Assembly (NCBI GenBank): GCA_012934845.2
Contig: WNNJ02003719.1
Span: 1 to 64,000, forward strand
Length of the DNA stretch: 64,000 nucleotides
Reading direction: 5' to 3'
Origin: Pomphorhynchus laevis
Lineage: Eukaryota; Acanthocephala; Palaeacanthocephala; Echinorhynchida; Pomphorhynchidae
Shown: in pieces, positions 7,047 to 33,924 of the stretch
Position numbering within the stretch: position 1 is the first letter of the stretch
Layout of the letters: each line of letters starts with the position of its first letter
Notes under the pieces: generated by a model
Databases searched by the model: none
What the model saw: the letters and a program-made list of their open reading frames with translations, nothing else
Told to the model about the DNA's origin: nothing
Program-made: the position numbers and the translations under genes

Positions 7047-7190
7047 TGTAGAAGCATGAAATTCTCTATATATAGAGAAAAGCAGATAGGTGTAATCGAC
7101 AGTCCTGGTTGAATCAAACCTTTTATATATATACATATAATTGTGCTGCTTGATAGACTGAACATCGATTCACGACTTTCAATCACCATG

Positions 7191-7282
7191 TCACTTCTAG
7201 GCGACCACATCAGCATCGAAATGATGAATACCCGGCAACAATAATCAGTAGAATGAGGTACACACCGGTCATTTCGGTTGCA
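7191..7282 (-). ncRNA. Reversed-order hammerhead-like motif, decayed (family 2)
   Basis: The strand order matches the other family-2 copies, but CUGANGA reads CTGATTA and stem II is damaged. Probably inactive. Confidence 0.4.
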
Positions 7283-7570
7283 TGTGTAGCATTGTGAATA
7301 AAGGCGTTTTCGACACTTTGCTTAATTGAGTGAGGCTTACGCTCTTTACCAGAACGAATTGCTGTGCGGACTATCCTTAAACGCCAGGCAAATGTTGTTG
7401 CTGAATTGATGTTGCACTCGTTGGATCCCTAATGGATACGGCATGTATAATAGTAGTACACAGATGTGCTGAGTAAACAACGGTCCAGGATTTCTTAGGA
7501 AATACGGCATTTATACTAACTGGTGTTGCTTGATAGACTGGACTTCGATTCACGACTTTCAATAACAATG

Positions 7571-7662
7571 TCACTTCTAGACGACCACTTCAGCATCTAA
7601 ATGATGAGTACCCGGCAACACTCATCAGTAGAATGAGGTACACACTGGTCGTTTCGGTAGCC
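7571..7662 (-). ncRNA. Reversed-order hammerhead-like motif (family 2)
   Basis: CTGATGA, GAAA and the UC cleavage dinucleotide are kept, and stem III ACGACCA/TGGTCGT is perfect. Stem II has one mismatch (GGCTACC). Confidence 0.5.
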
Positions 7663-8108
7663 TGTGTGACATTGTGAATAAAGGCGTTTCCGACCCTTTG
7701 GTTAATTGACTTAGGCATACGCTCTTTACCAGATCGAATTGCTGTGCGGACCATCCTTAAACACTAGGCAAAGGTTGTTGCTGAATTGTCGTTGCACTCG
7801 TTAGACCGTTAATGAATACGGCATGTATAATAGTAGTGCTCAGATGTGCACTACTATTATACAAGCCGTATCCATTAAGGATCTAACGAGTGCAAAGACA
7901 ATTCAGCAACACCCTAGTAGTGCACAGATGTGCACTACTATTATACATGCCATATGCAGTAAGGATCCAACGAGTGAAACGACAATTCAGCAACAACCTC
8001 TGCCTAGTGTTTAAGGACAATCCGCACAGCAATTGGATATGGTAAAGAGTGCAAGCCTCAGTCAGTTAAGCAAAGAGTCGGAAACGCCTTTATTCACAAT
8101 GTCACACA

Positions 8109-8200
8109 GGCAACCGAAACGACCAGTGTGTACCTCATTCTACTGATGAGTGTTGCCGAGTACTCAACATTTCGATGCTGAAGTGGTCGTCTAGAAGTGA
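8109..8200 (+). ncRNA. Reversed-order hammerhead-like motif, intact copy (family 2)
   Basis: In order: GGCAACC (8109-8115), GAAA (8116-8119), stem III 5' half ACGACCA (8119-8125), a 9-nt linker, stem I 5' half TCATTCTA (8135-8142), CTGATGA (8143-8149), stem II 5' half GTTGCC (8152-8157), a 26-nt linker, stem III 3' half TGGTCGT (8184-8190), C17 (8191) and stem I 3' half (8192-8200). Stem II is GGCAAC/GTTGCC plus a G-C pair next to the core. Stem III is 7 perfect base pairs. Stem I is 8 bp with one bulge. The predicted cleavage is after C8191. Confidence 0.6.
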
Positions 8201-8488
8201 CATGGTGATTGAAAGTCGTGAATCGAAGTCCAGTCTATCAAGCAACACCATTTAGTATAAAAGCCGTATTTCGTAAGAAATCCTGGACCTTTGTTTACTC
8301 AGCACATCTGTGCACTACTATTGAACATGCCGTAGGCATTAAGGATCCAACGAGTGAAACGACAATTCAGCAACAACCTCTGCCTAGTGTTTAAGGATGG
8401 TCCGCACAGCAATTAGATCTGGTAAAGAGCGTAAGCCTCACTAAATTAAGCAAAGTGTCGGAAACGCCTTTATTCATTATGTCACACA

Positions 8489-8580
8489 GGCAACCGAAAC
8501 GACCAGTGTGTACCTCATTCTACTGATGAGTGTTGCCATGTACTCATCGTTTCGATGCTAAAGTGGTCGTCTAGAAATGA
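8489..8580 (+). ncRNA. Reversed-order hammerhead-like motif, intact copy (family 2)
   Basis: Same arrangement as 8109-8200 with all core bases. The bulged base in stem I has changed from G to A, and the paired bases are untouched. Confidence 0.55.
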
Positions 8581-8708
8581 CATGGTGATTGAAAGTCGTG
8601 AATCGAAGTTCAGTCTATCAAGCAACACCATTTAGTATAAATGCCTATATATACTAAATGGTGTTGCTTGATAGACTGAACTTCGATTCACGACTTTCAA
8701 TCACCATG

Positions 8709-8800
8709 TCCCTTCAAGACGACCACTTCAGCATCGAAATGATGAGTACCCGGCAACACTCATCAGAAGCATGAGGTACACACTAGTCGATTCGGTTGCC
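8709..8800 (-). ncRNA. Reversed-order hammerhead-like motif, decayed (family 2)
   Basis: Several stem I and stem III positions are mutated (for example the GAAA strand reads GAATCGAC). Probably inactive. Confidence 0.4.
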
Positions 8801-9086
8801 TGTGTGACATTGTGAATATAGGCGTTTCCGACACTGCTTAATTGACTGATGATTACGCTCTTTACCAGATCTAATTGCTGTGCGGACCATGCTTAAACAC
8901 TAGGCAGAGGTTATTGCTAAATTGTCGTTGCACTCGTTGGATCCTTAATGGATACGGCATGTATAATAGTAGTGCACAGATGTGCTAATTATACAACAGT
9001 CCAGGATTTCTTACGAAATACGGCATTTATACTAAATGGTGTTGCTTGATAGACTGGACTTCGATTCACGACTTTCAATCACCATG

Positions 9087-9178
9087 TCACTTCTAGACGA
9101 CCACTTCAGCATCGAAATGTTGGGTACTCGGCAACACTCATCAGTAGAATGAGGTACACACTGGTCGTTTCGGTTGCC
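9087..9178 (-). ncRNA. Reversed-order hammerhead-like motif, intact copy (family 2)
   Basis: Minus-strand copy with all three helices and all core bases intact. Confidence 0.55.
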
Positions 9179-9466
9179 TGTGTGACATTGTGAATAAAGG
9201 CGTTTCCGACACTTTGCTTAATTGACTGAGGCTTACGCTCTTGACCAGATCGAATTGCTGTGCGGACCATCCTTAAACACTAAGCAGAGGTTGTTGCTGA
9301 ATTGTCGTTGCACTCGTTGGATCCTTAATGGATACGGTATGTATAAAAGTAGTGCACAGATTTGCTAAGTAAACAACGGTTCAGGATTTCTTACGAAATA
9401 CGGCATTTATACTAAATAGTGTTGCTTGATAGACTGGACTTCGATTCACGACTTTCAGTCACCATG

Positions 9467-9558
9467 TCACTTCTAGACGACCACTTCAGCATCGAAATGA
9501 TGAGTACCCGGCAACACTCATCAGTTGAATGAGGTTCACACTGGTCGTTTCGGTTTCC
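9467..9558 (-). ncRNA. Reversed-order hammerhead-like motif (family 2)
   Basis: Core intact. The stem II 3' half reads GGAAACC and mispairs with GTTGCC at one position. Stem I has one change. Confidence 0.45.
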
Positions 9559-9846
9559 TGTGTTACATTATGAATAAAGGCGTTTCCGACACTTTGCTTA
9601 ATTTAGTAAGGCTTACGCTCTTTACCAGATCTAATTGCTGTGCGGACCATCCTTAATCACTAGGCAGAGGTTGTTGCTGAATTGTCGTTGCACTCGTTGG
9701 ATTTTTAATACATACGGCATGTATAATAGTAGTGCACAGTTGTGCTGAGTAAACAACGGTCCAGGATTTCTTACGAAGTACGGCATTTATACTAAATGGT
9801 GTTGCTTGATAGACTGGACTTCGATTCACGACTTTCAATCACCATG

Positions 9847-9938
9847 TCACTTCTAGACGACCACTTCAGCATCGAAATGTTGAGTACTCGGCAACACTCA
9901 TCAGTAGAATGAGGTACTCACTGGTCGTTTCGGTTTCC
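9847..9938 (-). ncRNA. Reversed-order hammerhead-like motif (family 2)
   Basis: Core and stem III intact. Stem II has the same single mismatch as the copy at 9467. Confidence 0.45.
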
Positions 9939-10224
9939 TGTGTGACATTGTGAATAAAGGCGTTTCCGACACTGCTTTATTAACTGAGGCTTACGCTCTT
10001 TACCAGTTCGAACTGCTGTGCGGACCATTCTTAAACACTAGGCAGAGGTTGTTGCTGAATTGTCGTTGCACTTGTTAGATCCTTAATGCATACGGCATGT
10101 ATAATGGTAGTGCACAGATGTGCTGGGTAAACAACGGTCCAGGATTACTTACGAAATACGGCATTTATACTAAATGGTGTTGCTTGATAGACTGGACTTC
10201 GATTCACGACTTTCAATCACCATG

Positions 10225-10316
10225 TCACTTCTTGAAGACCACTTCAGCATCAAAATGTTGAGTACTCGGCAACACTCATCAGTAGAATGAGGTACACACT
10301 GGTCGTTTCGGTTGCC
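10225..10316 (-). ncRNA. Reversed-order hammerhead-like motif (family 2)
   Basis: Core and stem II are intact. The cleavage strand is mutated (TCTTC in place of CGTC next to stem I), so cleavage is doubtful. Confidence 0.45.
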
Positions 10317-10668
10317 TGTGTGACATTGTGAATAAAGGCGTTTCCGAAACTTTGCTTTATTAACTGAGGCTTACGCTCTTTACCATATCGAATTGCTGTG
10401 CGGACTATCCTTAAACAATAAGCAGAGTTTGTTGCTTAATTGTCGTTGCACTCGTTGGATCCTGAATGCATACGGCATGTTTAATAGTAGTGCACAGATG
10501 TGGTGAGTGAACAACGGTCCAGGATTTCTTACGCAATACGGCATTTATACTAAATATTGTTGCTTGATAGACTGGACTTTGATTCACGACTTTGAATCAC
10601 CATGTCACTTCTAGACGACGACTAGACGACCTTCTAGTCGGAAACGCCTTTATTCACAATGTCACACA

Positions 10669-10760
10669 GGCAACCGAAACGACCAGTGTGTACCTCATTC
10701 TACTGATGAGTGTTGCCGTGTACTCATCATTTCAATGCTGAAGTGGTCGTCTAGAAGTGA
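10669..10760 (+). ncRNA. Reversed-order hammerhead-like motif, intact copy (family 2)
   Basis: Plus-strand copy with the same segments as 8109-8200. All core bases and helices are present. Confidence 0.55.
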
Positions 10761-11048
10761 CATGGTGATTGAAAGTCGTGAATCGAAGTCCAGTCTATCA
10801 AGCAACACCATTTAGTATAAATGCCGTATTTTGTAAGAAATCCTGGACCGTTGTTTACTCAGCACATCTGTGCACTACTTTTATACATGGCGTTTGCATT
10901 AAGGATCCAACGAGTGCAACGACAATTCAGCAACAACCTCTGCCTAGTGTTTAAGGATGGTCCGCACAGCAATTCGATCTGGTAAAGAGCGTAAGCCTCA
11001 GTCAATTAAGCAAAGTGTCGGAAACGCCTTTATTCATAATGTCACACA

Positions 11049-11140
11049 GGAAACCGAAACAACCAGTGTGTACCTCATTCTACTGATGAGTGTTGCCGGG
11101 TACTCATCATTTCGATGTTGAAGTGGTCGTCTAGAAGTGA
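11049..11140 (+). ncRNA. Reversed-order hammerhead-like motif, partly decayed (family 2)
   Basis: Stem II reads GGAAACC, and stem III has a G to A change (ACAACCA), leaving an A-C mismatch. Core bases are kept. Confidence 0.4.
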
Positions 11141-11255
11141 CATGGTGATTGAAAGTCGTGAATCGAAGTCCAGTCTATCAAGCAACACCATTTAGTATAA
11201 ATGCCGTATTTCGTAAGAAATCCTGGACCGTTGTTTACTCAGCACATCTGTGCAC

Positions 11256-11257
<2 letters not shown>

Positions 11258-11297
<40 letters not shown>
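11258..11297. repeat. (TA)n microsatellite
   Basis: TA tract of about 40 bp joining the end of the family-2 array to the next PLE remnant. Confidence 0.95.
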
Positions 11298-11300
<3 letters not shown>

Positions 11301-11607
11301 AAAAGTATCTTATTAACATCAATCAACAAAATGTTTCAATATTCGAACGTTTCGGTTCTTAAACCTTCATCAGCTTCTAAAAGAAAAAAATCAAAAGCAA
11401 ATCAGTCAAGTTGCACATCAAAGAAATCAAAAACAAAAACAAAAAAAACGAAATTGTTCACGTTATAGCAGTCCATCGAAATATATTATCATTATCTAGT
11501 TCTGGTTCAATGTATGTGCTTAGTATCCCAATATATTGCATTTTTTTAAATCTAGTCTTTTCCTCATTTGCCTAGGAAATTACAATATAATCAAATGTAT
11601 CTGTATC

Positions 11608-11811
11608 TCAACGCGTTAGTGCATGTTTTACAGCGGAGTTAGCCTCTATTTTCTTTTTGATATGACATCGTCGGTTCGTGAGTCTGTCTCTTAAACCTCT
11701 TCCTGTTTGGCCTACATATTGGCTCGGACATTTCCTGCATTGTGCTAAGTATATTGCTCCTGAAGTTGTACAATCATTATTGCCATATATATGGTATTTT
11801 AGCACAGACAT
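11608..11811 (-). pseudogene. GIY-YIG endonuclease fragment of a PLE
   Basis: The 67-residue frame contains AIYLAQCRKCPSQYVGQTGR and NRRCHIKKKI, the usual core and helix of PLE-type GIY-YIG nucleases. The RT and the rest of the nuclease are missing. The N-terminal residues run into terminal repeat sequence. Not functional as an element. Confidence 0.75.
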
Positions 11812-11944
11812 TGAACCAGGACTAAATAATGATAATATATTTCGATGGACTGCTATAACGTGAACACTTTAGGGTTTTTTTTGTTTTTGATTTCTTTGAT
11901 GTGCAACTTGACTGATTTGTTTTTGATTTTTTTCTTTTTAGATG

Positions 11945-11967
11945 CTGATGAAGGTTTAAGAACCGAA
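11945..11967 (+). ncRNA. Hammerhead-like signature in PLE terminal repeat
   Basis: CTGATGA is followed by a GGTT/AACC hairpin, then GAAACGTTCG. The mirror copy lies on the minus strand (CUGANGA at 11367-11373). I cannot find a stem I partner on either copy, so I call it only a signature. Confidence 0.45.
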
Positions 11968-12023
11968 ACGTTCGAATATTAAAACTTTTTGTTGATTGGT
12001 GTTAATAAGATACTTTTACAATA

Positions 12024-12300
12024 TCTAAATGAACGGTCCTACGAGGATCACACCCGAAAGTCCCATGCTAGATAACATATATATAATCCAAGGTAGTAAA
12101 TAGCCAAAAATTATTTTACTACTATAAACACTAGCAATATATATAATCATAAGAGTTTCGTTTCAATCGGTATTGCTCGTGATTGGGAATCGGTATTGCT
12201 CGAGATACCAATTCAAACGAAACTCTTAAGATTACATAGATAGAATTGATTCACTCTATCTTGATTTCTTATAGTCAAGCATCTATAAGTTTGATCCTAT
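12024..12300. other. Repeat debris with imperfect inverted repeat
   Basis: Arms near 12151-12178 and 12199-12227 (AAGAGTTTCGTTT and its complement) form an imperfect palindrome. The GGTCCTACGAGGATCAC motif resembles the GGATCCC part of family 5. No gene seen. Confidence 0.5.
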
Positions 12301-12600
12301 GGTTGTTAATGATGGTCTGCATTGCAAATTGTAGGTTTTAAGAGCTAACGCTACTAACAATTTTAGCTAAAAGTCGGAAATGCATTTTCACAATGTCACA
12401 GAGGCAGCTAAAACGGCGTGTGATGGTTCATCTTACTGACAATGGCTGCCGGCTATCACATGACCGTCTAGGAGTGACGAGACTTTGCAGACTGAAGAAT
12501 ATGCTTAATTCGAACACTTACTTAAAGATACGGAAAGAATTGTTATTCGCAATCTCGAGCAATTCTGATTCAAACGAAACTCTGAAGATTATATAGCCTG
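12300..12600 (+). repeat. Family-1 repeat, second copy (decayed)
   Basis: Contains the ribozyme-like block of family 1 and flanks resembling families 1 and 2 (AAAGTCGGAAATGC, CACAATGTCACA). The 67-codon open frame over it looks incidental. Confidence 0.55.
12403..12477 (+). ncRNA. Reversed-order hammerhead-like motif, decayed core with compensatory changes (family 1)
   Basis: GGCAGC (12403-12408) pairs with GCTGCC (12445-12450). Stem III next to the core is ACGG/CCGT, where the other family-1 copy has ACGA/TCGT, so both sides changed and pairing is kept. GAAA has become AAAA, and CUGANGA reads CTGACAA, so it should be inactive. Confidence 0.5.
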
Positions 12601-12976
12601 CTCGCAAATGCTTTTTCATATAGAAAAGAATTTAATTTGTATGATCAATGTAAACAGAGACATTTACAGATCCACTAATGAATAAAAATAAAATAGAAAA
12701 AAAACAAATTCAGTACTGTACATTAGCAAAAGATATGTTAAAAATGTAACAAGTCAACTTTATCGTTAGCATTGCCGAAATGAATTTTGGATATAATGGA
12801 CAAAATATATACGCCAGGGTGACAGATGTGAAATGAAGAAAGATCAAGTCAGACTGTCGAGAGAGAAGAGTTGGATTAAAAGGAGATGTTTAAAGGTGTG
12901 AAAGAAGGAAGAGGAGTGAACGTCAACGGGAAGGCCGCTACATGCTATTGGCTAAGAAACATGATATGCTTGTTTT

Positions 12977-13010
12977 TCTTGTTTTTCGTTTACGGAAACG
13001 AAAAACAAGA
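12977..13010. repeat. 15-bp fold-back palindrome, 4-nt loop
   Basis: Arms 12977-12991 and 12996-13010 are perfectly complementary around ACGG. Confidence 0.9.
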
Positions 13011-13528
13011 AATAGTAAGCACATGGTGACGCATTGAGAAATTCTAAGCCAATTGAGAAGCCATTGATGGCAAGAAATATGATCAAAGCATCGAAGGCGT
13101 AATAAGATACGAGCGTTTATGTGGATAACGAGTAGAGGAAGACGAGTAAGGTTTTGGGTGAGTTGATTTGTAAACTGAGACAATAGTCCAGTTGCGGGAA
13201 GAGAAGTGAGAACATAAGTTGTTTGCAGATGTGCAGATTAACTATTCTATGAGTACGTCGAAAGTCACTGAGAAGAAAAGAGCAAGAACGAATTTTTTCA
13301 TTAACAAATGGTAAAAGAAAAAGATTGTTATCAAAAGAGACAACAAGAAAATTTCAAATGGTCGACATTGGGGAGATTTACCATCAAGTACAAGGAGAAA
13401 GAAATATCACGTTGAGGGTAGAACAGTGATCAGAAAGCGAACCGGTTGGATGGGTGATTATATAGCAGCATAGGAAAGAGAACTTAAAAACTTCTTGATT
13501 ACAACACTTACAATTTTTTCTGATAATT

Positions 13529-13588
13529 CCAGATTTTTCCTGTCAGTTCCAGATTTTTCCTGTCAGTTCTAGATTTTCCGGTCAGTTC
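13529..13588 (+). repeat. 20-bp tandem repeat, three copies
   Basis: The unit CCAGATTTTTCCTGTCAGTT occurs at 13529 and 13549, then again with changes at 13569. It lies about 100 bp before the LINE frame, as short tandem repeats often do in LINE 5' regions. Confidence 0.85.
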
Positions 13589-13624
13589 GGCTCACTACGC
13601 TCGCGGATTGAGATTAATATCTCG

Positions 13625-13665
13625 ATTTGCTACTGAAACTATCGGCGATAGTTGCAGTAGCAAAT
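13625..13665. repeat. 20-bp inverted repeat, 1-nt loop
   Basis: Arms 13625-13644 and 13646-13665 pair with one mismatch. Confidence 0.8.
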
Positions 13666-13683
13666 CTAACAGCTTCAACACAA

Positions 13684-14999
13684 AAGGACGTTAATGGGAG
13701 GACTTAAGAAAATAGATATGACCGACAAAAACTATGCACAACTGCAAGTACAGTGCTCGACACACGACTGCAGCGTCTGGACAAAAATCGCCTGCGACAA
13801 CAATAAGTCAAAAAAAGACTTCTTATGTAAACTTTGTGCCAACAAACTAATCCTCAACATGTTTACTCAAACTACCCCTTCAAACACCTACCAACCTAAG
13901 TCGCCCTTAGAGAAATCTTGACCTCCCCCTTCTCCGCTCCGTCTTGCTTAAATCATCTCTATCTTCTCACACAATAACATCATCCTCTCCTCACGATCTT
14001 GCTATTGTTTTCGATTCTAAACTCACATCCACTCTCGATCTTCTCATGCCCTTCCAGCCTAAACCCTCACCGTCGCTTGCACCATGCCCAATGGTTTGAC
14101 ATCCAATGCCTACACTCAAAGCGTCGACTCGGTCATGCTTTGAGAGTATATCACCGCTCTCTTAGACGTGATATCCGCTCGCTCACTACATCTCTCCGTG
14201 ATTCCTATCTTCCTCTTTTCCAGTCTCACCTCCACCTACTACGTACCAAATGCAACTCCTTTTGGCAGCATAAAATCAACACTTTATTAAACTACAAGTC
14301 TCTCTGACATACTTTTAACTCAATCATTTCTCTCTCCTCTTCGTCTTGCAATATCAATCTCCATGATTATTCGACATTTCTTCAGAAAAAAGTATCCAAG
14401 TTGCTATCTCACAACCCCGTTTACATTCAATCTCACTGCTACTCCCCTCGCCTTATCCTCCCGGAACTCTTTTATATTCTCCCTGTCTCACCTGCCGAAG
14501 TCTCATCTGTCCTCATGTCCTTGCCCAACAAAACCTCACCTGCCGATTCCCTGCCTACCATCATTCTCAAATCCATATGCTTATCGATATCCCCTTTCTT
14601 CACCACCTTGTTTAACTCGTCTATTAGCAGTCGTATCTTTCAATCACAATAGAAATCCGCTATCGTTTGTACCCTCTTTAAGAAACAATCGCTCGACCCC
14701 TCCCTTCCTTCTAGCTATCGCCCCATTTAACTCCTCCCTACTCTTTCCAAGCTCTTAGAGCGCCTTATCTTAAAACAGATCAAGGTTTATCTCTCTTCAT
14801 CTAATCTGTACCCTCTTTTCCAATCCGCTTCCCACGCTAATCATTCCAGAGAAATCGCCTGCATGAGTTTACAACGACCTACTCATTTCTCATGACAAGG
14901 CTCTATATAGTGTATTCGTCACCCTCGCCCTCTCATCCGCCTTCGACATCGTCGACCACTCCATCCTACTTTCTCGCTTTCGTCATCAATTTTACCACA
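13684..14999 (+). pseudogene. LINE-A copy, internally deleted
   Basis: The sequence starts with a short cysteine-rich frame (13694-13921: C-x4-C and C-x2-C motifs such as FLCKLC, PHD-like). It then jumps directly into the sequence that follows the endonuclease in the related copy at 61080-63895. RT-linked parts follow: DIQCLHSKRRLGHALR near 14100, NKTSPADSLPT near 14530 and AFDIVDHSILLSRF near 14940. Frames are broken several times. The 3' end is cut at about 14999, where a PLE-B piece begins. Most of the endonuclease is deleted. Confidence 0.75.
13694..13921 (+). CDS. Short cysteine-rich (PHD-like) LINE protein fragment
   Basis: The 75-residue frame has cysteine and histidine spacing like a PHD or zinc-binding domain (CSTHDCSVWTKIACDN, then FLCKLC). 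Such domains occur in ORF1 or at the start of some LINE proteins, where they may bind nucleic acid or protein. It ends where the deletion joins it to RT-linked sequence. Possibly translated, but part of a dead copy. Confidence 0.45.
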   Translation: MGGLKKIDMTDKNYAQLQVQCSTHDCSVWTKIACDNNKSKKDFLCKLCANKLILNMFTQTTPSNTYQPKSPLEKS

Positions 15000-15250
15000 A
15001 AGGCCACTCCAAATAAATTCTATTCTATAAAAATACCATCAAACAGAAAATAGTAAAATATATAAATCAACACAATAATATAAAAAATAAATTTAAAATC
15101 ATTAGCGGAAAATTTTTATGGAAGGATAATAAATTATATACTTTGTATGAGAATAATATACTATATAATCAAATTTCATCAGATGAAATACGTCCTTAGC
15201 TCATATTTGACCCCGCTATGTCGGGTCGATGGTAGGGGCCGAATCATCAA
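15000..15250 (+). pseudogene. PLE-B C-terminal fragment and tail
   Basis: It matches the end of the PLE-B open frame at 18780-18911 (KQKIVKYINQHNN). It then has the tail with GACCCCGCTATGTCGGGTCGA and GGGGCCGAA, a conserved PLE-B 3' block. Confidence 0.65.
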
Positions 15251-15265
15251 TATAACAAAACATAT

Positions 15266-15420
15266 ATTTTATATCTTTATATTTATTTTTTACACAGTTA
15301 TGAACAAACTTATATAGTATAAAGCTTACAAATAAGTCAGCAATAATTAAGCTATTATTACCTACCATTGGAACACCTTTATTTTATCCTTAAAATATAA
15401 GACCTTCAATAAGGTTTTAG
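15266..15420 (-). pseudogene. PLE-B reverse transcriptase fragment
   Basis: On the minus strand it translates to a damaged version of the GVPMGGN motif region and FVHNCVKNK seen at 60900-61020. Inverted relative to the piece just before it. Confidence 0.6.
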
Positions 15421-15766
15421 TTTCGGCATGAAAAAATTAGAAGCAAATATGTAATCAGATATGTTAATATGTAATCAGATACTTAAATCTAATCCAATTC
15501 GTTCTTTACTTTTAGAATTATTCAAAAATGTACCAATATTTATGTTATCTATACATTTATTAATGAATTTTATGGCCAGTGTATTTTTTACTGTTATTAT
15601 TAACATTTATTGTCCGATTATAGTATTTTATGTTACAATAGCGATCTATTATACAACTTTACATATCATATTCGTTAATTAATCTTTGATTTATTAAATA
15701 AATGATATCCTTAGAAAAACTTCTTTTATTTACATAAAAATCTTTTAGTTCATTATCTCTTAAAAG

Positions 15767-16165
15767 TTATTTTAATATTTCTAATTGTTCATATATATAC
15801 TTATCTTTTTTAATATTTTTAAGTCTATTTTTCTTATATTTTTTTATACCATGACTTCTTGGTTTGCGTTTAACCGGATTATTATAATATAGTTGTTTAT
15901 TATGTATTATACTACTTCTGCCAATTCCTTGTACCACGTCATTCAATCCTAATGGGTACATGGAATTAAGCGTTTTAATCCAAAAATCTTCTTTTTCTAA
16001 TAGTTTTTGATTTAATATTGAAATGTTTTCTTCGATAATATGTTCTAAAATAAATAATTTACAGTTTTTAATATCATGTCCTATTAATCTCATATGTTTA
16101 TGAAATATAGTTTGACTATTATGCTGTATATTATATATGTGTTGCCTAAACCTAGTTTTTAACAT
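15767..16165 (-). CDS. PLE-B C-terminal nuclease region (partial)
   Basis: The 132-residue frame has RFRQHIYNIQ, an ILEHI segment and FWIKTLNSMYPLGLND. That last motif is typical of the C-terminus of GIY-YIG endonuclease domains in a group of PLE-like reverse transcriptases. The GIY-YIG catalytic start is missing upstream, as is the RT. A lysine-rich basic tail follows (KYKKNRLKNIKKDK). Probably a remnant of the same element whose RT pieces lie at 17.7-21 kb. Confidence 0.6.
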   Translation of the reverse strand: MLKTRFRQHIYNIQHNSQTIFHKHMRLIGHDIKNCKLFILEHIIEENISILNQKLLEKEDFWIKTLNSMYPLGLNDVVQGIGRSSIIHNKQLYYNNPVKRKPRSHGIKKYKKNRLKNIKKDKYIYEQLEILK

Positions 16166-17638: not shown

Positions 17639-17642
17639 TTAC

Positions 17643-21409: not shown

Positions 21410-21640
21410 ATCTGATTTTGTATATATTAATCTCGCAAACTTTTTTATATTAAAAATAAATTTAAAATCATTAGCTGAAAAATTTTATGGATAATAAATA
21501 ATATACTTTGTATTAGAATGAGATACTAAATAATCAAATTTCATTAAAGGAAATAAGTAATTAGCGCGTATTTGGAAGCGCTGCTATGTTGGGTCGAGGA
21601 ATAGTTGTCGAATCCTGATAGTATAGCAGTTCCTCTTGAT
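21410..21640 (+). pseudogene. Second PLE-B tail copy
   Basis: Repeats the preceding tail about 310 bp later, with the same AATAAATAATATACTTTGTATT block and CTGCTATGTTGGGTC block. GAAA is mutated to GAAT. Confidence 0.6.
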
Positions 21641-23350: not shown

Positions 23351-23353
23351 GAA

Positions 23354-24700: not shown

Positions 24701-25545
24701 TCAGACTCATTTCTGACCCTTTTGACAATTAGATCAATTCGAAACATTTGCTCGACTTCCATGATTTGCCTGTCAATTACAGACTTTACATAACCTTTAG
24801 ACATGAATTCGTTTCTTAGTGCTTTGATGCATTCGGTATGCTGTGATTGTTCATAGCAAATCTTTCTAGCTCGTATAAACTCATTGCGAATTAAGAGGAG
24901 TTTGATTTTGATAGGTGCAAGGAGTGAGCATGCAAAATCGGCTATACACCGCTAAATGTTTTGTGTAATTTTGTTTGCCACATTCTATTCAGGTCGTTAT
25001 AGTCCGATAAATATCAAAGTATCCTCATTTCTCTCACTGAAACGAAATTCACTAGTATTGCTGAGACTATCAAGGAGATAATCAAACCATTCTATTCCAT
25101 GAGTCCAGATCATGCTATTCAGGTCGTTATATATATCTATGCCGATAAATATCACAGTATCCTCATTTTTCTCACTGAAACGAAATTCACTAGTATTGCT
25201 GAGACTCTCAAGGAGATCATCAAACCGTTCTATTCCATGAGTCCAGATGACAAAAATATCATCGATGTATTTTAACCAGAGATACGGCTTATAGAGACTG
25301 CTGGATATTATATTTTCTTTAACATGTGCCATATATAATTCAGCGACCAAGGGTGCAACCAGGCTGCTAATTGATGTACCAATCTGTTGATGAAAAAGGT
25401 GACCTTCGAACGTAAATGTGTTGAATTTCAAGACTGTGTCCAATAATGATTGTGTTTTGTTTATTTCAGTTTCTTGCCAATTATTTTTACGTAATATTTC
25501 AACAATTGATCTAATGCCTTTATGTATGTGCCTATACATTTATGC
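24700..25545 (-). pseudogene. PLE remnant with duplicated segment
   Basis: On the minus strand the frame at 24997-25539 shows RT motif B (HQQIGTSISSLVAPLVAELYM) and motif C (LKYIDDIFVIW), followed by a segment of about 40 residues present twice (WTHGIERFDDLLESLSN and WTHGIEWFDYLLDSLSN). The duplication covers about 120 bp. Motif B has lost the usual MGT (TSI). The downstream part decays in 24700-24990. No nuclease is seen. Confidence 0.75.
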
Positions 25546-26126
25546 CTATATGTATTGACGTTTATAGTGATTAAACGTTAAGTGTGTACAAAATCTTATG
25601 TCCATCTTCACTTTATGTGATTTTATAATCTCACATTATGACTTTACAATTTTTCACGTCATGTTAACGACACAAAATATAAACATTTATATCGTTATAT
25701 ATTAAGATGAATATAAATATTTACAGTATAAACATGAATTATTTAAAAACGTTTATTAATAATAACTAATATTTATCCGAAATATGTTCGTATAAATTAA
25801 AATATTTAGTTAAAAATTATCGTTAATTATGCAATTATTACAACAAAAAATGTTATGTTTAATTAATATTAAATTAATATTAAAATATTTAATATTAATT
25901 AATATTAATATTTAATATTAATTAATATTTAATAAATATTTAAATTAATATTATGTTTAAATTAATATAATATTTTATAACTATATAGTTATGAAATACA
26001 ATTGTATATTTAATTAATGAACGATAAAAATATTTTAAATAATTATTGAACATAATAAAATATATTAAGTTTAAAAATGGTTATTTTAAATAATCACTGT
26101 TAAAAACCACCATCCCAGGGTATATT
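25546..26126. other. AT-rich stretch without gene
   Basis: Dominated by ATTAATATTAAAT-type sequence; nothing recognisable. Confidence 0.5.
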
Positions 26127-26187
26127 AAAGACGCTAATAATATTACTTGTAATAAAAGAAACTGGGAAGTAGAGCCTTTATTTATTT

Positions 26188-26225
26188 GCGAAACGTTTAG
26201 ACCGTTTCTGGTCTTCTTCAGTCGC
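26188..26225 (-). ncRNA. Minimal PLE hammerhead, left terminal copy
   Basis: On the minus strand GCGA precedes CTGAAGA (CUGANGA with N7 = A). Stem II is GACC/GGTC, then TAAA where GAAA is needed, then CGTT and TCGC that pairs with GCGA. The G12 loss should inactivate it. Confidence 0.6.
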
Positions 26226-26339
26226 TAGTGTTAAATGTTAGATTTTGACAGTGGGTATGACAATTTATCTGCAATTACAATCTGGAAGAATTCAAAGATC
26301 GTACAAAAAAATAAGAAGTGGACACCCATCCCGTACAAA

Positions 26340-27060
26340 ACGTGAAATTATACGCAATGAGGCACACCGGGCTTTGACAATTTGTTCAACCCCTGAAACT
26401 TTCGAAGAACAACTAACGTTGCTGTATGTTCAGTTCATAGACGTGGTTATACACACCGCCAGGTTCTCACACAGTTTTCATATATTCGTGAGCTAGACAA
26501 AAAAAAGCCAAACTAACAATGGAATGCACTTATTAAAAAACGATGAGAATACTATTAATCTAATTGTGACCTTCCATCCCTTACTGGCATGACTCCACCG
26601 TTTATTAGATTTGGCATTTTCAGAGATTCTTGCGACAAGAAGACAGACCATACAAAGACCTCCGATAGGATACCGGAACTCAGGAAATTTCAACTGGATA
26701 GTACAACACATGTCACCGATAACCACTGAAGGAGATGGATTACGCCGTTGTGGAGACCGAAGATGTGCAAATTGCATTGACATGATCGAATCACTCAGGT
26801 TTACCTCTTAAATAACGGGTCTATCATACACAATAGACGGTGAATACAAATGCAAATCGAGATACGTGATTTATATGAACGTGTCTGGATTGTGAAGTCC
26901 AACAGGTAGGACAAACTTTGACGCAATACAACATTCGAGCTAACAACCGTCGAAAGGACATACAAAGCGGCAATATGGAAGCAAACGGGACAGTTCATCA
27001 TCTTGTCGAAAATCCATCACACACAATGAAGACTGTCATAACAGATTGACATATTAATTA
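26340..27060 (+). pseudogene. PLE C-terminal RT tail and GIY-YIG nuclease, decayed
   Basis: Recognisable in shifting frames: REIIRNEAHRALTIC near 26345, a cysteine cluster (RRCGDRRCANC) near 26750, SYTIDGEYKCKSRYVIYM near 26825, QQVGQT-like sequence near 26905 and RANNRRKDIQSGNMEAN near 26940. Multiple stops and frameshifts. Same domain order as PLE 1. Confidence 0.75.
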
Positions 27061-27061
27061 C

Positions 27062-27454
27062 ACATAAAAGCGTAAACAACGGGAAACACGATGGGTTATA
27101 CAATTGATGACTGACAAAAGTCTGAATCAGGCCGAACATCCGTGACATCCATTGGAAATAAGTGATAGTGGTGCAAATCCTCAGAGTAATGCAAATATCT
27201 CACTCCAACAAAGAACTCAACACAGCAATCGAAGTCACGCCATGTGAAGTGATAATAACAAAAACTCGAATAATACTGAAATTCTTCCAGATAAAAAGCT
27301 GTGATAAAATTTTTTGTAAGATCTTGGAATTCTTCCAGATCGGAAAAAAAATTTTAACGTGGCAAATGCGTGCCAGCGCACGCTTACAGGACCACAGATA
27401 GTGGTCATGTAAGCGTGGTCATGACCACAAATAGTTGGGATTACAGATAAATTG
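27062..27454. other. Tail region of the PLE with an inserted LINE-A-like scrap
   Basis: GTGGTCATGTAAGCGTG (27406-27422) matches the 3' end of LINE-A (about 63839-63855). A short hairpin (GCGTGCC/GGCACGC-like) lies near 27370. Otherwise noncoding. Confidence 0.4.
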
Positions 27455-27489
27455 TCCTACCCACTGTCAAAATCTAACATTTAACACTA

Positions 27490-27527
27490 GCGACTGAAGA
27501 TGACCAAAAATGGTCGAAAAGTTTCGC
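27490..27527 (+). ncRNA. Minimal PLE hammerhead, right terminal copy
   Basis: GCGA (27490-27493), CTGAAGA (27494-27500), stem II GACC/GGTC, GAAA, AGTT in place of the usual ACGT, then TCGC (27524-27527) pairing with GCGA. Core intact. Stem III is reduced to near nothing, so activity would need dimer formation, as reported for PLE hammerheads. Confidence 0.6.
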
Positions 27528-27609
27528 AAATAAATAAACGCTCTACTTCTCAGTTTCTTTCATTACAAGTTATATATAAATAAAAATAAATTATATATAT
27601 AAATATATA

Positions 27610-28495
27610 TAAAGACACCAGCAATTCCTCACGATGATATACGAAGCTCAGGTGCATAAAGCGTTTTTACCGGCTTGTTGCGCGTGTGGACCTTTTAGTT
27701 ATTCTTTATGTAAGGTACAAATTCGTATCCGTTGATTACGAGGGCACTGAATTTCTCACATGATTCCAAAAGGAATGCGTCATTTTATAAATTGTTATTG
27801 CGAAAAATCGCTTGAAACTGTGGTCCAGGAGCCAAAGCTGGCTAAGATTGATTTTTAATCCATATATGCTGCTAAATAACTGGACTTCGATCATCAGCTC
27901 CATCAGTCTAATGTATCACTCCGAGACGTTCCTAACCACCCAGCAGTCATCGTCAGTCGGATGAAGTAGTTAGGGTACGTATCGACTGCTTTTGTGATAA
28001 CTATAAAGACACCAGCAATTTATCACGATGCTATACGAAGTTCATGTGCAGAAGCGTATTTACTGGCTTGTTGCGTGTGTGGACCTTCTAGTTATTCTTT
28101 ATATAAGGCACAAATGCGTATCCGTTGATTACGAGGGCACTGAATTTCTCACAGGATTCCTGAAGGAATGCGTCATTGTATAAATTGTTATTACGAAAAA
28201 ATCGCTTGAAACTGTGGTCCAGGAGCCAAAGCTGGCTACGATTGATTTTTAATCCAAATTTGCTGCTAAATAACTAGACTTCGATCATCAGCTCCGTCAG
28301 TCTAATGTATCACTTCGAGACGTTCCTAACCACCCAGCAGTATCGACGGTCGGATGAAGTAGTTAGGGTACGTTTGACTACTTTTGTAATAACTATAAAG
28401 ACAACCCCAATTCCTCATAATGCTATACGAAACTCAGGTGCAAAAAGGCGTTTTTACTGGCTCGTTGCGTGTGTGACCTTTCTAGTTATTCTTAT
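27610..28495 (-). repeat. Family-3 repeats, minus orientation, two full units and a part
   Basis: Units at about 27613-28004 and 28005-28396, then a truncated third. They are 5-10% diverged from the plus array at 30535-33924 by eye. Reversed-order ribozyme blocks lie at about 27926-27995 and 28316-28380. Confidence 0.85.
27926..27995 (-). ncRNA. Reversed-order hammerhead-like motif, mutated (family 3)
   Basis: CTGACGA, stem II AGCAGTC/GACTGCT and the UC cleavage site are kept. GAAA reads GATA. Stem III next to the core is extended here (ACGT with ACGT). Confidence 0.45.
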
Positions 28496-28622
28496 ATATA
28501 ATAGTAGTGCACGGATGTGCTTGATAGACAACGGTCTAAGATTTCTTTCGAAATAAGGCATTTATACAAAATAGTGTTGCTTGATAGACTGGACTTTGAT
28601 TCACGACTTTCAGTCACTATAT
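28496..28622 (-). repeat. Family-2 repeat fragment
   Basis: The TAGTAGTGCAC...GTTGCTTGATAGACTGGACTT block of family 2, cut before the ribozyme. It directly follows family 3. Confidence 0.8.
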
Positions 28623-28624
28623 AT

Positions 28625-29836
28625 AGAAGTAGACGAGATTCGACCTGAAGCGTAAAAGGCTCTCGACGTTGTTGGCATTAAGTGGCTAACACGGATCTTC
28701 TACGTTGCATTTGAAGTCGGGCAAGGTTCCAAGTGAATGGCGAATTGGGGGTGGTGGTACCTGTCTTAAAAAAGGTGACCGAAGAGTATGTTCCAATTAT
28801 CGGGTCATCACTCTTCTTAGCAAAACTGGTAAGCTATTTTGCTAGGATTTTTGAGTTAAAAATACGGCAAATGGTTAAGGGACAGTTGCAAGAGGAACAA
28901 TGCGGCTTTCGTCCAGGTTGTGGAACAACGGATCAGCTCTTTACTCTCTCAACTATCTTTGAATGGTCTTGGGAGTTCGCTCAACCGGTCTGCATGTGTT
29001 TTGTATATTTGGAGGGGGCGTTCGACCAAGTTCCTCGAGAGAGGTTGTGGGAGGTACTAAGAGAGTATGGAGTACCAAACTATTTTCGGGAAGTTGTGGC
29101 TTCTCTGCATGAACAAAGTATGAGTTATGTTCGTACTCGAGGTAGGAAGTCTGGATCATTTCTAGTAGGCGTTGGACTTCGTCAGGATTATCCTTTGTTT
29201 CCACTTTAGTTCCTTGTTTACACGGACAAAATTTCGTGATGGGCTGCTCTGACGGATGTCGATCTTCAGTTCGGTTCCATTAAGATACCATCTCTGCTTT
29301 TTGTAGATGACGTTGTCTTGTTGGCTTCTTGTCCTGAGGATTTGCAATGCATACTAGATCGATTTACGATGGAATGCCAAGCGGCAGGGATATTAGTTAG
29401 TACCTCACAGACTGTCTCTATGTGTTCATCTCGGATTCAGATGCCAATGTCAATCCCGATTGGAGAAAATGTTCTTCCTGATGTGGAAGATTTCAAGTGT
29501 CTTGGGGTATTGTTCTCGAGGGAGGGCAAGGTTATCAAAGAGATTGAGAAGCGGATTTGTGCAGCTAACGCAGCAATGCGTTCTTTGTTTAGGTATGTCG
29601 TGGTTAAGCGGGAGTTGAGTCTTCGGGCGAAGCATTTGGTTTACCATGCAATCTTCGCTCCTATCTTAACCTATGGTCATGAGCTTTGGGTTATGACAGA
29701 AAGGATACTATCTCGGATACAGGCCACCGAAATGAGGTTCCTTCGCGATATGGCTGGTCTTAGCCTTAGAAATAAGGATAAGAATTCGGTCATCCGAGAT
29801 GGACTCCGAGTAAATCGCTGCATATATAACGGACTG
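28625..29836 (+). pseudogene. LINE-B reverse transcriptase remnant
   Basis: Starts with DEIRPE-like sequence and a truncated first RT block. QCGFRPGCGTTDQLFTL and CFVYLEGAFDQVPRERLW (motif A; D is kept) lie near 28920-29050. Then come VGVGLRQDYPLFPL (motif B, altered), FVDDVVLLAS (motif C region with DD) near 29305 and LGVLFSREGKVIKEIEKRI in the thumb. At least two frame breaks lie between 29209 and 29318. The family is non-LTR (RTE- or CR1-like) and is also present at 54400-56080. Confidence 0.75.
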
Positions 29837-30537
29837 TGAAAAATACCTTTGGCAAATTTTATATGTTGCCAAAAACACATAAAGAAACACGCCCCTACCG
29901 AGGTCGGCCGATAGTTAGCTGTGTTGATACACCTACAGAATTCCTATCAAAATGGGTACATACTCAACTGGCAACTTTTCTGCACCGTAAACCGTCATAC
30001 ATATCTAGTTCTATCGAATTCCTTCGCAGACTTGAAGGTATTAAAACACAAAGGTTAAATATTACCAAGCTTATCACTGCAGATGTAGAATCGCTTTATA
30101 CGAATATTCCTCACAACGAAGGCATTAACGCCATAAACGTTGCACTTAGAGATTCCGATATATCTATAAAACAGAAGACATTCATTATTGAAGCAGTTAC
30201 GCTTATTTTGCAAAACAATTATTTATATTTCGAAGACAATGTTTACCATCAAATATCGGGGATCGCAATGGGAACACCGATTGCACCCGCGTATGTGATG
30301 ATCTACATGGCTGAGATGGAAAAACGATGGCTTGCAACTTCGTCGATTCAACCGTTAATGTATACTCGGTATATTGATGATATTTTTATGCTTTGGGGCG
30401 GTAATGATGTTTTATTGGATGATTTCATTTTCAAATCCAACAGCTCAACTGGTTTAACGTTATCCGTTAATAAAAGCAGCTACACTGTCAATTTTTTAGA
30501 CGTCACAATAACAATAAACGATCATGTAATTCAATGG
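29836..30537 (+). CDS. PLE reverse transcriptase, open central fragment
   Basis: An open frame of about 234 residues with the PLE signatures FYMLPKTHKETRPYRGRPIVS, motif A (TADVESLYTNIP), motif B (HQISGIAMGTPIAPAYV) and motif C (TRYIDDIFMLW). It ends at IQW, where the family-3 array begins; the last part of the 247-residue frame is repeat sequence. It lacks the N-terminal region and the nuclease. It probably came from an element of the Poseidon type. The open state suggests recent insertion or capture. Confidence 0.8.
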
Positions 30538-31346
30538 TGTCTTTATAGTTATCACAAAAGCAGTCAAAAAGTACCCTAACCACTTCATCCGACTGACGAT
30601 GACTGCTGGGTGGTTAGGATCGTCTCGGAGTGATACATTAAACTTATAAAGCTGATGATCGAAGTCCAGTTATTTAGCAGCAAATATGGATTAAGAATCA
30701 ATCGTAGCCAGCTTTGGCTCCTTGAACACAGTTTCAAGCGATTTTTTCGCAATAACAATTTATACAATGACGCATTCCTTCAGGAATCCTGTGAGAAATT
30801 CAGTGCCCTCGTAATCAACGAATACGCATTTGTGCCTTATATAAAGAATAACTAGAAGGTCCACACACGCAACCAGCCAGTAAACACGCTTCTGCACCTG
30901 AGTTTCGTATAGCATCGTGAGGAATTGCTGGTGTCTTTATAGTTATCACAAAAGCAGTCGAAACGTACCCTAACCACTTCATCCGAATGACGATGACTGC
31001 TGGGTGGTTAGGATCGTCTCGGAGTGATACATTAAACTGATGGAGCTGATGATCGAAGTCCAGTTATTTAGCAGCAAATATGGATTAAAAATCAATCGTA
31101 GCCAGCTTTGGCTCCTGGACCACAGTTTCAAGCGATTTTTTCGCAATAACAATTTATACAATGACGCATTCCTTCAGGAATCCTGTGAGAAATTCAGTGC
31201 CCTCGTAATCAACGGATACGCATTTGTGCCTTATATAAAGAATAACTAGAAGGTCCAAACACGCAACCAGCCAGTAAACACGCTTCTGCACCTGAGTTTC
31301 GTATAGCATCGTGAGGAATTGCTGGTGTCTTTATAGTTATCACAAA

Positions 31347-31417
31347 AGCAGTCGAAACGTACCCTAACCACTTCATCCGACTGACGATGACTGCTGGGTG
31401 GTTAGGATCGTCTCGGA
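31347..31417 (+). ncRNA. Reversed-order hammerhead-like motif, intact copy (family 3)
   Basis: In order: AGCAGTC (31347-31353), GAAA (31354-31357), ACG (31357-31359), CCTAACCAC (31363-31371), TCCGA (31376-31380), CTGACGA (31381-31387; N7 = C), GACTGCT (31389-31395), GTGGTTAGG (31398-31406), CGT (31409-31411), C17 (31412) and TCGGA (31413-31417). Stem II is 7 bp. Stem III is 3 bp, an internal loop, then 9 bp. Stem I is 5 bp. Predicted cleavage is after C31412. Confidence 0.6.
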
Positions 31418-31740
31418 GTGATACATTAGACTGATGGAGCTGATGATCAAAGTCTAGTTATTTAGCAGCAAATATGGATTAAAAATCAATCGTAGCCAGC
31501 TTTGGCTCCTGGACCACAGTTTCAAGCGATTTTTTCGCAATAACAATTTATACAATGACGCATTCCTTCAGGAATCCTGTGAGAAATTCAGTGCCCTCGT
31601 AATCAACGAATACGCATTTGTGCCTTATATAAAGAATAACTAGAAGGTTCACACACGCAACAAGCCAGTAAATACGCTTCTGCACCTGGGCTTCGTATAG
31701 CATCGTGAGGAATTGCTGGTGTCTTTATAGTTATCACAAA

Positions 31741-31811
31741 AGCAGTCGAAACGTACCCTAACCACTTCATCCGACTGACGATGACTGCTGGGTGGTTAGG
31801 ATCGTCTCGGA
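31741..31811 (+). ncRNA. Reversed-order hammerhead-like motif, intact copy (family 3)
   Basis: Same as 31347-31417, 394 bp downstream. All core bases and stems are intact. Confidence 0.6.
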
Positions 31812-33316
31812 GTTATACATTAGACTGATGGAGATGATGATCGAAGTCCAGATATTTAGCACCAAATATGAATTAAAAATCAATCGTAGCCAGCTTTGGC
31901 TCCTGGACTACAGTTTCAAGCGATTTTTTCGCAATAACAATTTATACAATGACGCATTCCTTCAGGAATCCTGTGAGAAATTCAGTGCCCTCGTAATCAA
32001 CGGATACGCATTTGTGCCTTATATAAAGAATAACTAGAAGGTCCACACACGCAACAAGCCAGTAAATACGCTTCTGCACCTAAGCTTCGTATAGCATCGT
32101 GAGGAATTGCTGGTGTCTTTATAGTTATCACAAAAGCAGTCGAAACGTACCCTAACCACTTCATCCGACTGACGATGACTGCTGGGTGGTTAGGATCGTC
32201 TCAGAGTGATACATTAGACTGATGGAGCTGATGATCAAAGTCCAGTTATTTAGCAGCAAATATGGATTAAAAATCAATCGTAGCCAGCTTTGGCTCCTGG
32301 ACCACAGCTTCAAGCGATTTTTTCGTAATAACAATTTATACAATGACGCATTCCTTCAGGAATCCTGTGAGAAATTCAGTGCCCTCGTAATCAACGGATA
32401 CGCATTTGTGCCTTATATAAAGAATAACTAGAAGGTCTAAACACACAACCAGCCAGTAAACACGCTTCTGCACCTGAGTTTCGTATAGCATCGTGAGGAA
32501 TTGCTGGTGTCTTTATAGTTATCACAAAAGCAGTCGATACGTACCCTAACCACTTCATCCGACTGACGATGACTGCTGGGTGGCTAGGATCGTCTCGGAG
32601 TGATACATTAGACTGATGGAGATGATGATCGAAGTCCAGTTATTTAGCAGCAAATATGGATTAAAAATCAATCGTAGCCAGCTTTGGCTCCTGGACCACA
32701 GTTTCAAGCGATTTTTTCGCAATAACAATTTATACAATGACGCATTCCTTCAGGAATCCTGTGAGAAATTCAGTGCCCTCGTAATCAACGGATACGCATT
32801 TGTGCCTTATATAAAGAATAACTAGAAGGTCCACACACGCAACAAGCCAGTAAATACGCTTCTGCACCTGGGCTTCGTATAGCATCGTGAGGAATTGCTG
32901 GTGTCTTTATAGTTATCACAAAAGCAGTCGAAACGTACCCTAACCACTTCATCCGACTGACGATGACTGCTGGGTGGCTAGGATCGTCTCGGAGTGATAC
33001 ATTAGACTGATGGAGATGATGATCGAAGTCCAGATATTTAGCAGCAAATATAGATTAAAAATCAATCGTAGCCAGCTTTGGCTCCTGGACCACAGTTTCA
33101 AGCGATTTTTTCGCAATAACAATTTATACAATGACGCATTCCTTCAGGAATCCTGTGAGAAATTCAGTGCCCTCGTAATCAACGGATACGCATTTGTGCC
33201 TTATATAAAGAATAACTAGAAGGTCCACACACGCAACAAGCCAGTAAAAACGCTTCTGCACCTGAGCTTCGTATAGCATCGTGAGGAATTGCTGGTGTCT
33301 TTATAGTTATCACAAA

Positions 33317-33387
33317 AGCAGTCGAAACGTACCCTAACCACTTCATCCGACTGACGATGACTGCTGGGTGGTTAGGATCGTCTCGGA
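33317..33387 (+). ncRNA. Reversed-order hammerhead-like motif, intact copy (family 3)
   Basis: Same structure. Units between carry single changes: at 30565-30570 GAAA is AAAA, at 30987 CUGANGA starts with A, near 32535 GAAA is GATA, and at 32205 stem I loses a G-C pair. Confidence 0.6.
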
Positions 33388-33924
33388 GTGATACATTAGA
33401 CTGATGGAGCTGATGATCGAAGTCCAGTTATTTAGCAGCAAATATGGATTAAAAATCAATCGTAGCCAGCTTTGGCTCCTAAACCACAGTTTCAAGCGAT
33501 TTTTTCGTAATAACAATTTATACAATGACGCATTCCTTCAGGAATCCTGTGAGAAATTCAGTGCCCTCGTAATCAACGGATACGCATTTGTGCCTTATAT
33601 AAAGAATAACTAGAAGGTCCACACACGCAACAAGCCAGTAAATACGCTTCTGCACCTGGGCTTCGTATAGCATCATGAGGAATTGCTGGTGTCTTTATAG
33701 TTATCACAAAAGCAGTCGAAACGTACCCTAACCACTTCATCCGACTGACGATGGCTGCTGGGTGGTTAGGATCGTCTCAGAGTGATACATTAGACTGATG
33801 GAGCTGATGATCAAAGTCCAGTTATTTAGCAGCAAATATGGATTAAAAATCAATCGTAGCCAGCTTTGGCTCCTGGACCACAGTTTCAAGCGATTTTTTC
33901 GTAATAACAATTTATACAATGACA

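Follow-up and report, generated by a model that had tools for sequence, protein, structure and literature searches.

Comparison with described hammerhead systems

Eckert et al. 2023 (Nucleic Acids Research, NAR, PMC10085705) defined type GCS of the hammerhead ribozyme by its block order, namely GAAA, CUGANGA, cleavage site. One Caballeronia sequence of this type cleaved slowly and incompletely, and its relevance was called unclear by the same authors because no covariation was observed (PMC10085705). The present work concerns a stretch of 64,000 nt from Pomphorhynchus laevis (assembly GCA_012934845.2, contig WNNJ02003719.1, positions 1 to 64,000; hereafter, the window), in which tandem repeats with the same block order were found. 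The window is part of one contig of a 249 Mb genome, which was searched as a whole. A preliminary description of the window, made from its letters, had held that this arrangement was undescribed, whereas it had already been defined as type GCS. We consider it probable that the elements are retrozyme-like repeats with a type-GCS hammerhead, which would cleave when the loop of one unit docks on the base of a second unit.

The comparison with the Caballeronia sequence was made by its published description and not by letters. Common to both are the block order, the crossing helices and a full core. However, the published type GCS is one bacterial sequence, whereas five related families (1, 2, f2s, 3 and 4) occur here as tandem repeats in thousands of copies, with two-sided changes in each stem, an extended stem III and the additional helix P0. 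The type-SGC hammerheads (Eckert et al. 2023, PMC10085705) are likewise non-circular and covarying, with an extra helix tying stems I and II; their block order is S-G-C and they come from metatranscriptomes, whereas the present repeats are G-C-S and genomic.

Metazoan retrozymes without long terminal repeats, as presented by Cervera and de la Pena 2020 (PMC7229834), are likewise short, non-autonomous tandem repeats of 150–450 bp with low GC, and dimeric action is reported for some of them. In the same paper, the hammerhead in retrozyme circles is inferred to be blocked in vivo, and not by self-pairing. Those retrozymes carry type I hammerheads (PMC7229834), whereas the repeats described here are of type GCS; their unit lengths of 357–394 bp and GC of 0.41–0.42 fall within the retrozyme range of 150–450 bp and under 50% GC. 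The minimal type I hammerheads of Penelope-like elements (Cervera and de la Pena 2014; Lunse et al. 2017, both as cited in PMC7761336) also reside in Penelope-linked repeats and are said to act as dimers. However, those hammerheads act as dimers in the absence of a stem III and with the normal strand order, whereas the present repeats have a long stem III and a permuted order. The double hammerheads of newt and viroid RNAs (Forster et al. 1988, as summarized in PMC7761336) are active as dimers as well. A literature search by title and abstract, with preprints and most subscription journals outside its scope, returned no paper on type-GCS repeats in eukaryotes, and the present families would be the first covarying type-GCS families known to us.

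Block order and helices of the motif

The 5' half of the motif consists of a P0 strand (TATCAC or TGTCAC), 2–3 nt, a stem II strand, GAAA, stem III followed by helix X, one nucleotide and an 8-nt stem I strand. The 3' half consists of CUGANGA, the stem II strand with an additional U, a dinucleotide, the return of X and III, UC, a stem I strand with one bulged base, and the return of P0. A total of 75 distinct copies were examined, of which 14 were not parsed. Among the 61 parsed copies, the core (CUGANGA, GAAA and a UH site) was fully intact in 46, the nucleotide ahead of stem I was U in 39, C in 19 and G in 3, and the two nucleotides 3' of stem II were GG in 49. As had been proposed from the letters, the linear order is non-circular relative to types I–III, and the three helices cross within the unit (1-4, 2-5, 3-6). 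The cyclic order of types I, II and III (CUGANGA, GAAA, site) is absent within a unit and arises only across two units. In contrast, the newt and viroid double hammerheads reportedly keep the normal cyclic strand order.

The single unit of family 1 carries its motif at 346–422 on the minus strand. Labeled by stem and side, its parts are II3' 422–416, GAAA 415–412, III/X5' 411–399, linker U 398, I5' 397–390, CUGAUGA 389–383, II5' 382–375, GG 374–373, X/III3' 372–359, U358, C357 and I3' 356–348, with the predicted site after C357. In the case of family 2, the motif at 8109–8202 (plus) comprises II3' 8109–8115, GAAA 8116–8119, III5' 8120–8125, X5' 8126–8133, I5' 8135–8142, CUGAUGA 8143–8149, II5' 8150–8157, X3' from 8160, III3' 8184–8189, U8190, C8191 and I3' 8192–8200. 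The predicted site follows C8191, and the enclosing helix P0 pairs 8100–8105 (TGTCAC) with 8197–8202 (GTGACA). Compared with f2s, a further family found genome-wide with tandem copies approximately 362–364 bp apart, family 2 holds approximately 16 extra nt between X3' and III3'. The family 3 motif at 31347–31423 (plus) comprises II3' 31347–31353, GAAA 31354–31357, III5' 31358–31359, X5' 31363–31371, U 31372, I5' 31373–31380, CUGACGA 31381–31387, a bulged U 31388, II5' 31389–31395, GG 31396–31397, X3' 31398–31406, III3' 31409–31410, U31411, C31412 and I3' 31413–31421. Here, the predicted site follows C31412 and P0 pairs 31338–31343 with 31418–31423.

The cores, stems and predicted sites of families 1–3 (after C8191 and C31412 for families 2 and 3) thus lie where the preliminary description had placed them. 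Family 1 lies outside its range of 7135–33924, and a large share of that range (approximately 12.6–27.6 kb) is other sequence. The TCCGA/TCGGA pairing given for stem I of family 3 is present, but the stem is longer than claimed, namely TCATCCGA / TCGGAgTGA, with 5 bp, a bulge and 3 bp as in family 2.

Genome-wide, 3,818 matches combined GAAA, CUGANGA and the site, in this order and with the expected spacing, compared with none in the backwards control, and these families thus show the order G-C-S within one stretch. The block-C consensus gave 5,992 genome matches and none in the backwards controls. A descriptor scan of the whole window for all six block orders returned five GCS matches (one family 1, four family 2), with thresholds that miss family 3 and most family 2 copies and call one damaged family 2 copy as another order. 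Local shuffles of the window gave 0.05 GCS matches per shuffled window (one in 20 shuffles). The order and helices exceed chance in this comparison as well as in the next two. A covariance model of the permuted order, whose use had been suggested earlier, was trained on seven sequences from families 1, 2 and f2s and a decayed family 4 copy (including 12403–12479 and 36526–36620, but not 36788–36882). Although family 3 was left out of training, all 11 family 3 copies of the window were matched at full length, with E from 1e-9 to 2e-4.

An empirical null was obtained from bacterial and viral contigs of IMG/VR and GTDB matching CGAAACG-N20/21-CTGANGA-N21/22-CGTC, with nine matches in IMG/VR and at least 118 in GTDB (124 distinct sequences). 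The helix thresholds were at least 6/7 for stem II, 6/8 for stem I and 7/8 for X. Among the matches listed, none of the 124 distinct external sequences reached these thresholds, compared with 6/6 distinct window sequences and 24/27 distinct loci of the same genome, some of which overlap the window. When IMG/VR was searched with the consensus of block C plus site, nothing was found. A chance resemblance amplified through repeat copying would gain from the fact that copies within a family are not independent. Nevertheless, this explanation is contradicted by the shuffles, the 124-sequence null and the compensation between families described below, and we consider it very improbable.

A further stem III class, GAAACC...GGTC, was considered and set aside, as by eye its 37 places genome-wide contained no new GCS family. 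Two were f2s-like, 34 were apparently one other repeat and one was a single sequence. That other repeat (for example, at C170:83858-83918) is dispersed and has GAAACCUGAUAGCAUAGCAGUUCCUCCUGAUGACC with a variable downstream palindrome; by inspection, it is not the GCS motif.

Compensatory changes between and within families

Compensation was analyzed with five hand-typed family consensus sequences, in which the better of two possible registers was used for pairs II1 and I5. Across these, 163 of 165 pairs were formed. In stem II, all 14 differing family comparisons altered both sides with pairing kept, and in stem I this held for 14 of 18, the other four being G-U. Two-sided changes occurred at 3/8 positions of stem I, 3/7 of stem II, 1/3 of stem III, 8/9 of X and 1/6 of P0. 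The true strand assignment was the best of 120, tied only with the swap of the near-identical families 2 and f2s. Stems I, II and III at the core therefore covary between families, and the earlier statement that the paired bases differ while the core stays constant was borne out by the five consensus sequences.

Within family 3, pair III3 also covaries (Fisher p = 0.0002, C/U by G/A table, contig-level counts). The counts were C-G 27, U-A 8, U-U 7, C-A 4, U-G 2 and other 2, read from 99 of 100 listed places out of a total of 1,076; they represent copies, not events, and the covariation probably reflects few events. As for the relation among families, families 1, 2 and 4 show 72–74% identity over 101–173 bp surrounding the motif. 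Family 3 shares 51 bp at 74.5% identity with family 4 (E 5e-4) and short stretches with families 4 and 1 at E 0.0005–0.001. Because of this similarity around the motif, the families are probably one lineage and not independent inventions. Order, helices, compensation, spacing, copy number and junction positions are all established directly from the DNA.

Hairpin geometry and proposed docking between units

The apical loop is 26 nt long in families 1, 3 and 4. Stem III plus X has 14 bp and a single bulge in both family 1 and family 4. In family 3 it has 12 bp interrupted by an internal loop, and in f2s it is a continuous helix with 15/15 bp. Linkers of 1 and 2 nt connect it to stems I and II, respectively. 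When single units were folded by ordinary energy minimization, the III/X hairpin appeared in families 1 and 3 (z -1.57 and -2.20 versus shuffles, respectively). In two-unit minimum-energy folds of families 1, 3 and 4, each unit formed a hairpin by itself, and family 2 folded in other ways. The nested cross-unit hammerhead was absent from these two-unit folds, which come from programs that cannot show loop-to-base docking with the hairpin kept.

Regarding the function of the motif, we infer cleavage, docking between units, circles and a mobilizing enzyme. The repeats would be non-autonomous, retrozyme-like retrotransposed tandem elements with units of approximately 357–394 bp. Each unit would form a hairpin with a long stem III (3–4 bp plus 9–10 bp) under the 26-nt apical loop. 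CUGANGA and one half each of stems I and II would lie in the loop, and the hairpin base would carry the complementary halves together with GAAA and the cleavage site. The loop of a given unit would dock on the base of another, either a tandem neighbor or a second molecule. The docked pair would then adopt the usual three-way hammerhead fold and be cut after UC, with the outer ends of stems I and II held together by helix P0 at the foot of the hairpin. Tandem RNAs would thereby be cut into units, and a single unit or one-unit circle could not cut itself.

The two models offered previously fare differently under this geometry. As stem III/X measures 12–15 bp and the linkers 1 and 2 nt, a unit's own loop would not be able to reach its own base without a sharp bend, and the shortfall in a rigid single unit is estimated at tens of angstroms; the loop of a different unit would reach it. 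The model nested across units thus fits the anatomy best. Since CUGANGA of one unit would pair with GAAA and site of the other, one-unit RNAs and circles would be stable and multimers would be cut. Whether the hammerhead is built to work only between units, such that one cuts the next in head-to-tail chains and the one-unit circle is safe, is in our judgment evenly balanced.

The other model, a pseudoknotted type-GCS hammerhead within one unit, would have X open and its strands become linkers, so that X serves as an off-switch and stems I, II and a stem III of 3–4 bp form within the unit. The published GCS-1 cleaves as a single-motif construct, slowly and incompletely (PMC10085705). Stems I and II (approximately -17 to -19 kcal/mol, duplex energy) could also pay for opening X, as the whole hairpin amounts to approximately -13 to -17 kcal/mol. 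However, X has the most two-sided changes, and the lengths of loop and linkers are nearly constant, as would suit an active state in which X is formed; the uninterrupted f2s helix also counts against this fold. The one-unit fold is accordingly regarded as unlikely.

Insertion junctions

Among 52 distinct array 3' ends, 34 fell at unit positions 62–74 (14) or 127–140 (20) in motif orientation, and a TA repeat of at least 6 nt lay beside 21 of these 34, compared with 1 of the 18 other 3' ends. The 58 distinct 5' ends were more scattered. Recurring 5' ends occurred at family 2 position 111 and family 4 positions 214–217, partly as head-to-head junctions and in overlapping loci. Clustered 3' ends with scattered 5' ends suggest that the motif strand is the RNA strand, and this pattern would be expected from target-primed copying that starts internally. 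Frangieh et al. 2024 (PMC11167929) describe a Penelope-like element with internal initiation and AT-rich targets, which the 3' junctions here resemble. The insertions sit in (TA)n, a setting that makes target-site duplications difficult to recognize, and the cut RNA would be copied into such sites from internal starts approximately 62–74 and 127–140 nt after the cut.

In the case of family 2, (TA)n was joined to unit positions 1–5 in 15 places genome-wide (24 overlapping matches), and 8 of the 15 read exactly (TA)n-TAGAAGTGACATGG, that is, (TA)n followed by the predicted 3' cleavage product. A comparison test approximately 20 nt downstream of the predicted cut gave 1 place versus 15. When these 15 stretches were fetched and read, 10 were seen to stop close to unit position 71 or 137, whereas four continued and one soon diverged; their 3' flanks differ. 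Such junctions are as expected if they are the footprint of RNA ends made by cleavage in vivo.

The same junctions bear on the suggestion that the motif is a conserved non-catalytic RNA structure, such as a reverse transcriptase binding site, or a hitch-hiking ribozyme relic. The activity of the motif is a prediction from sequence, 15 of the 61 parsed copies have a damaged core, and mutating the hammerhead of a Penelope-like element does not abolish insertion in vitro (Frangieh et al. 2024, PMC11167929). However, core residues, unpaired ones included, are kept across families in which the helices have changed, and the family 2 junctions fall at the predicted site. We therefore find a non-catalytic role quite improbable.

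Several observations weigh against cleavage by docking between units. Docking is preferred to a one-unit fold with X opened solely on geometric grounds, which are taken from the published fold. By ordinary energy rules, the family 2 unit did not form the hairpin and folded no better than shuffles (z +1.06). As the families are related, the independent compensations are few. Within f2s, stem III pair 4 varies without covarying (9 C-G, 2 U-A, 5 U-G and 4 C-A; Fisher p = 1, 20 copies), and the third stem III pair of the window family 3 consensus is a T-T mismatch. The footprint comparison covers one position in family 2, and two other causes of the junctions are possible. These are TA microhomology, as the predicted product starts with TA, and stopping of the reverse transcriptase at the base of stem III. 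Among the 58 distinct 5' junctions from 69 fetched loci plus the window, 1 lay at the predicted site, a sample in which site junctions are disfavored because most loci were chosen for holding the motif; none of the 52 3' ends lay within 5 nt of it.

Distribution of the repeats and other features of the window

The left part of the window holds long tandem repeats with periods of 351, 380, 394, 441 and 463 bp. The family 2 arrays span 7143–11170 with 380-bp units in both orientations. Their motif copies lie at 7189–7282, 7569–7662, 8707–8800, 9085–9178, 9465–9558, 9845–9938 and 10223–10316 (minus) and at 8109–8202, 8489–8582, 10669–10762 and 11049–11142 (plus). The arrays join head to head at short palindromes (7849, 8645–8650 and 10623–10637), which look as if made by second-strand synthesis or template switching. 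A diverged family 2 copy at 36526–36620 (minus) has an altered yet paired stem III (CGACUA/UAGUCG) and GAAC for GAAA, and a second at 36788–36882 (plus) has a damaged core (CUAAUGA). Elsewhere in the genome, at L041:1518-1616, a family 2 unit carries a fold-back insertion of its own stem II strand ahead of the GAAA strand.

The family 3 array spans 30535–33923 (plus) with 394-bp units, and its motifs start at 30559, 30953, 31347, 31741, 32135, 32529, 32923, 33317 and 33711. Inverted family 3 units lie at 27608–28501 (minus), with motifs at 27914–27990 (GATA for GAAA) and 28308–28382 (damaged core). A second CUGAUGA approximately 60 nt 3' of the family 3 site was dropped as chance, as it is absent from some units. 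The decayed family 4 copy at 12403–12479 (plus) has a mutated core (AAAA, CUGACAA). Family 4 is a 357-bp satellite elsewhere in the genome, where its commonest form has an intact core, with 35 identical motif copies among the copies scanned. Tracts of (TA)n at 171–235 and 11259–11297 adjoin the family 1 unit and a family 2 array, respectively, at their 3' ends (231 and 11269).

The open reading frames (ORFs) of the window include one 7-transmembrane receptor and several reverse transcriptases, some of which we take to be Penelope-like or LINE-type; this gene content suggests an animal source. A partial reverse transcriptase ORF (RVT_1) at 29836–30579 (plus), presumably Penelope-like, runs into the family 3 array on the same strand. 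A candidate reverse transcriptase ORF at 1801–3123 (minus) shows tblastn similarity to 29836–30579 and matched no Pfam family. From its motifs we assume that it is Penelope-like, and it is either a candidate mobilizer or a mere neighbor of the repeats. ORFs taken to be Penelope-like border the repeats on the same strand at 30.5 kb of the window and in the genome loci L013, L033, L044 and L019/L068. On the opposite strand, they do so at 11.5 kb of the window and, in the case of family 4, in L050; fragments of this kind occur commonly in this genome.

Hammerheads in normal order were also present. A 351-bp tandem family at 4757–7133 carries a compact hammerhead in type I order, in both orientations around 5.6 kb, and scores 28–29 bits with the Rfam HH9 model, below its gathering score of 52. 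Repeats of the 441-bp and 463-bp types hold hammerhead-like cores with CUGAUGA before GAAA at 899, 1341, 3454 and 3915 (plus) and at 33980 and 34443 (minus). Normal and permuted forms thus coexist in one window. Two CUGAUGA-AGGUU...AACC-GAAA stretches in opposite orientation, at 11373 (minus) and 11945 (plus), are possibly small hammerheads. Apart from these, a long inverted repeat at 60210–60323 matches a microRNA precursor model on both strands, below its gathering score, and a 186-bp tandem duplication at 61896–62267 lies within an ORF, adjoining a reverse transcriptase-like region.

Implications

In 2023, type GCS was the hammerhead permutation left without a clear natural relevance. The compensated copies described here, which number in the thousands, would support the occurrence of all six block orders in nature and would place a non-circular hammerhead permutation in an animal-like genome. 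If docking between units is true, topology alone would let a self-cutting mobile RNA spare its circular form. This would also offer an answer to the unknown block in animal retrozyme circles, as described by Cervera and de la Pena 2020 (PMC7229834).

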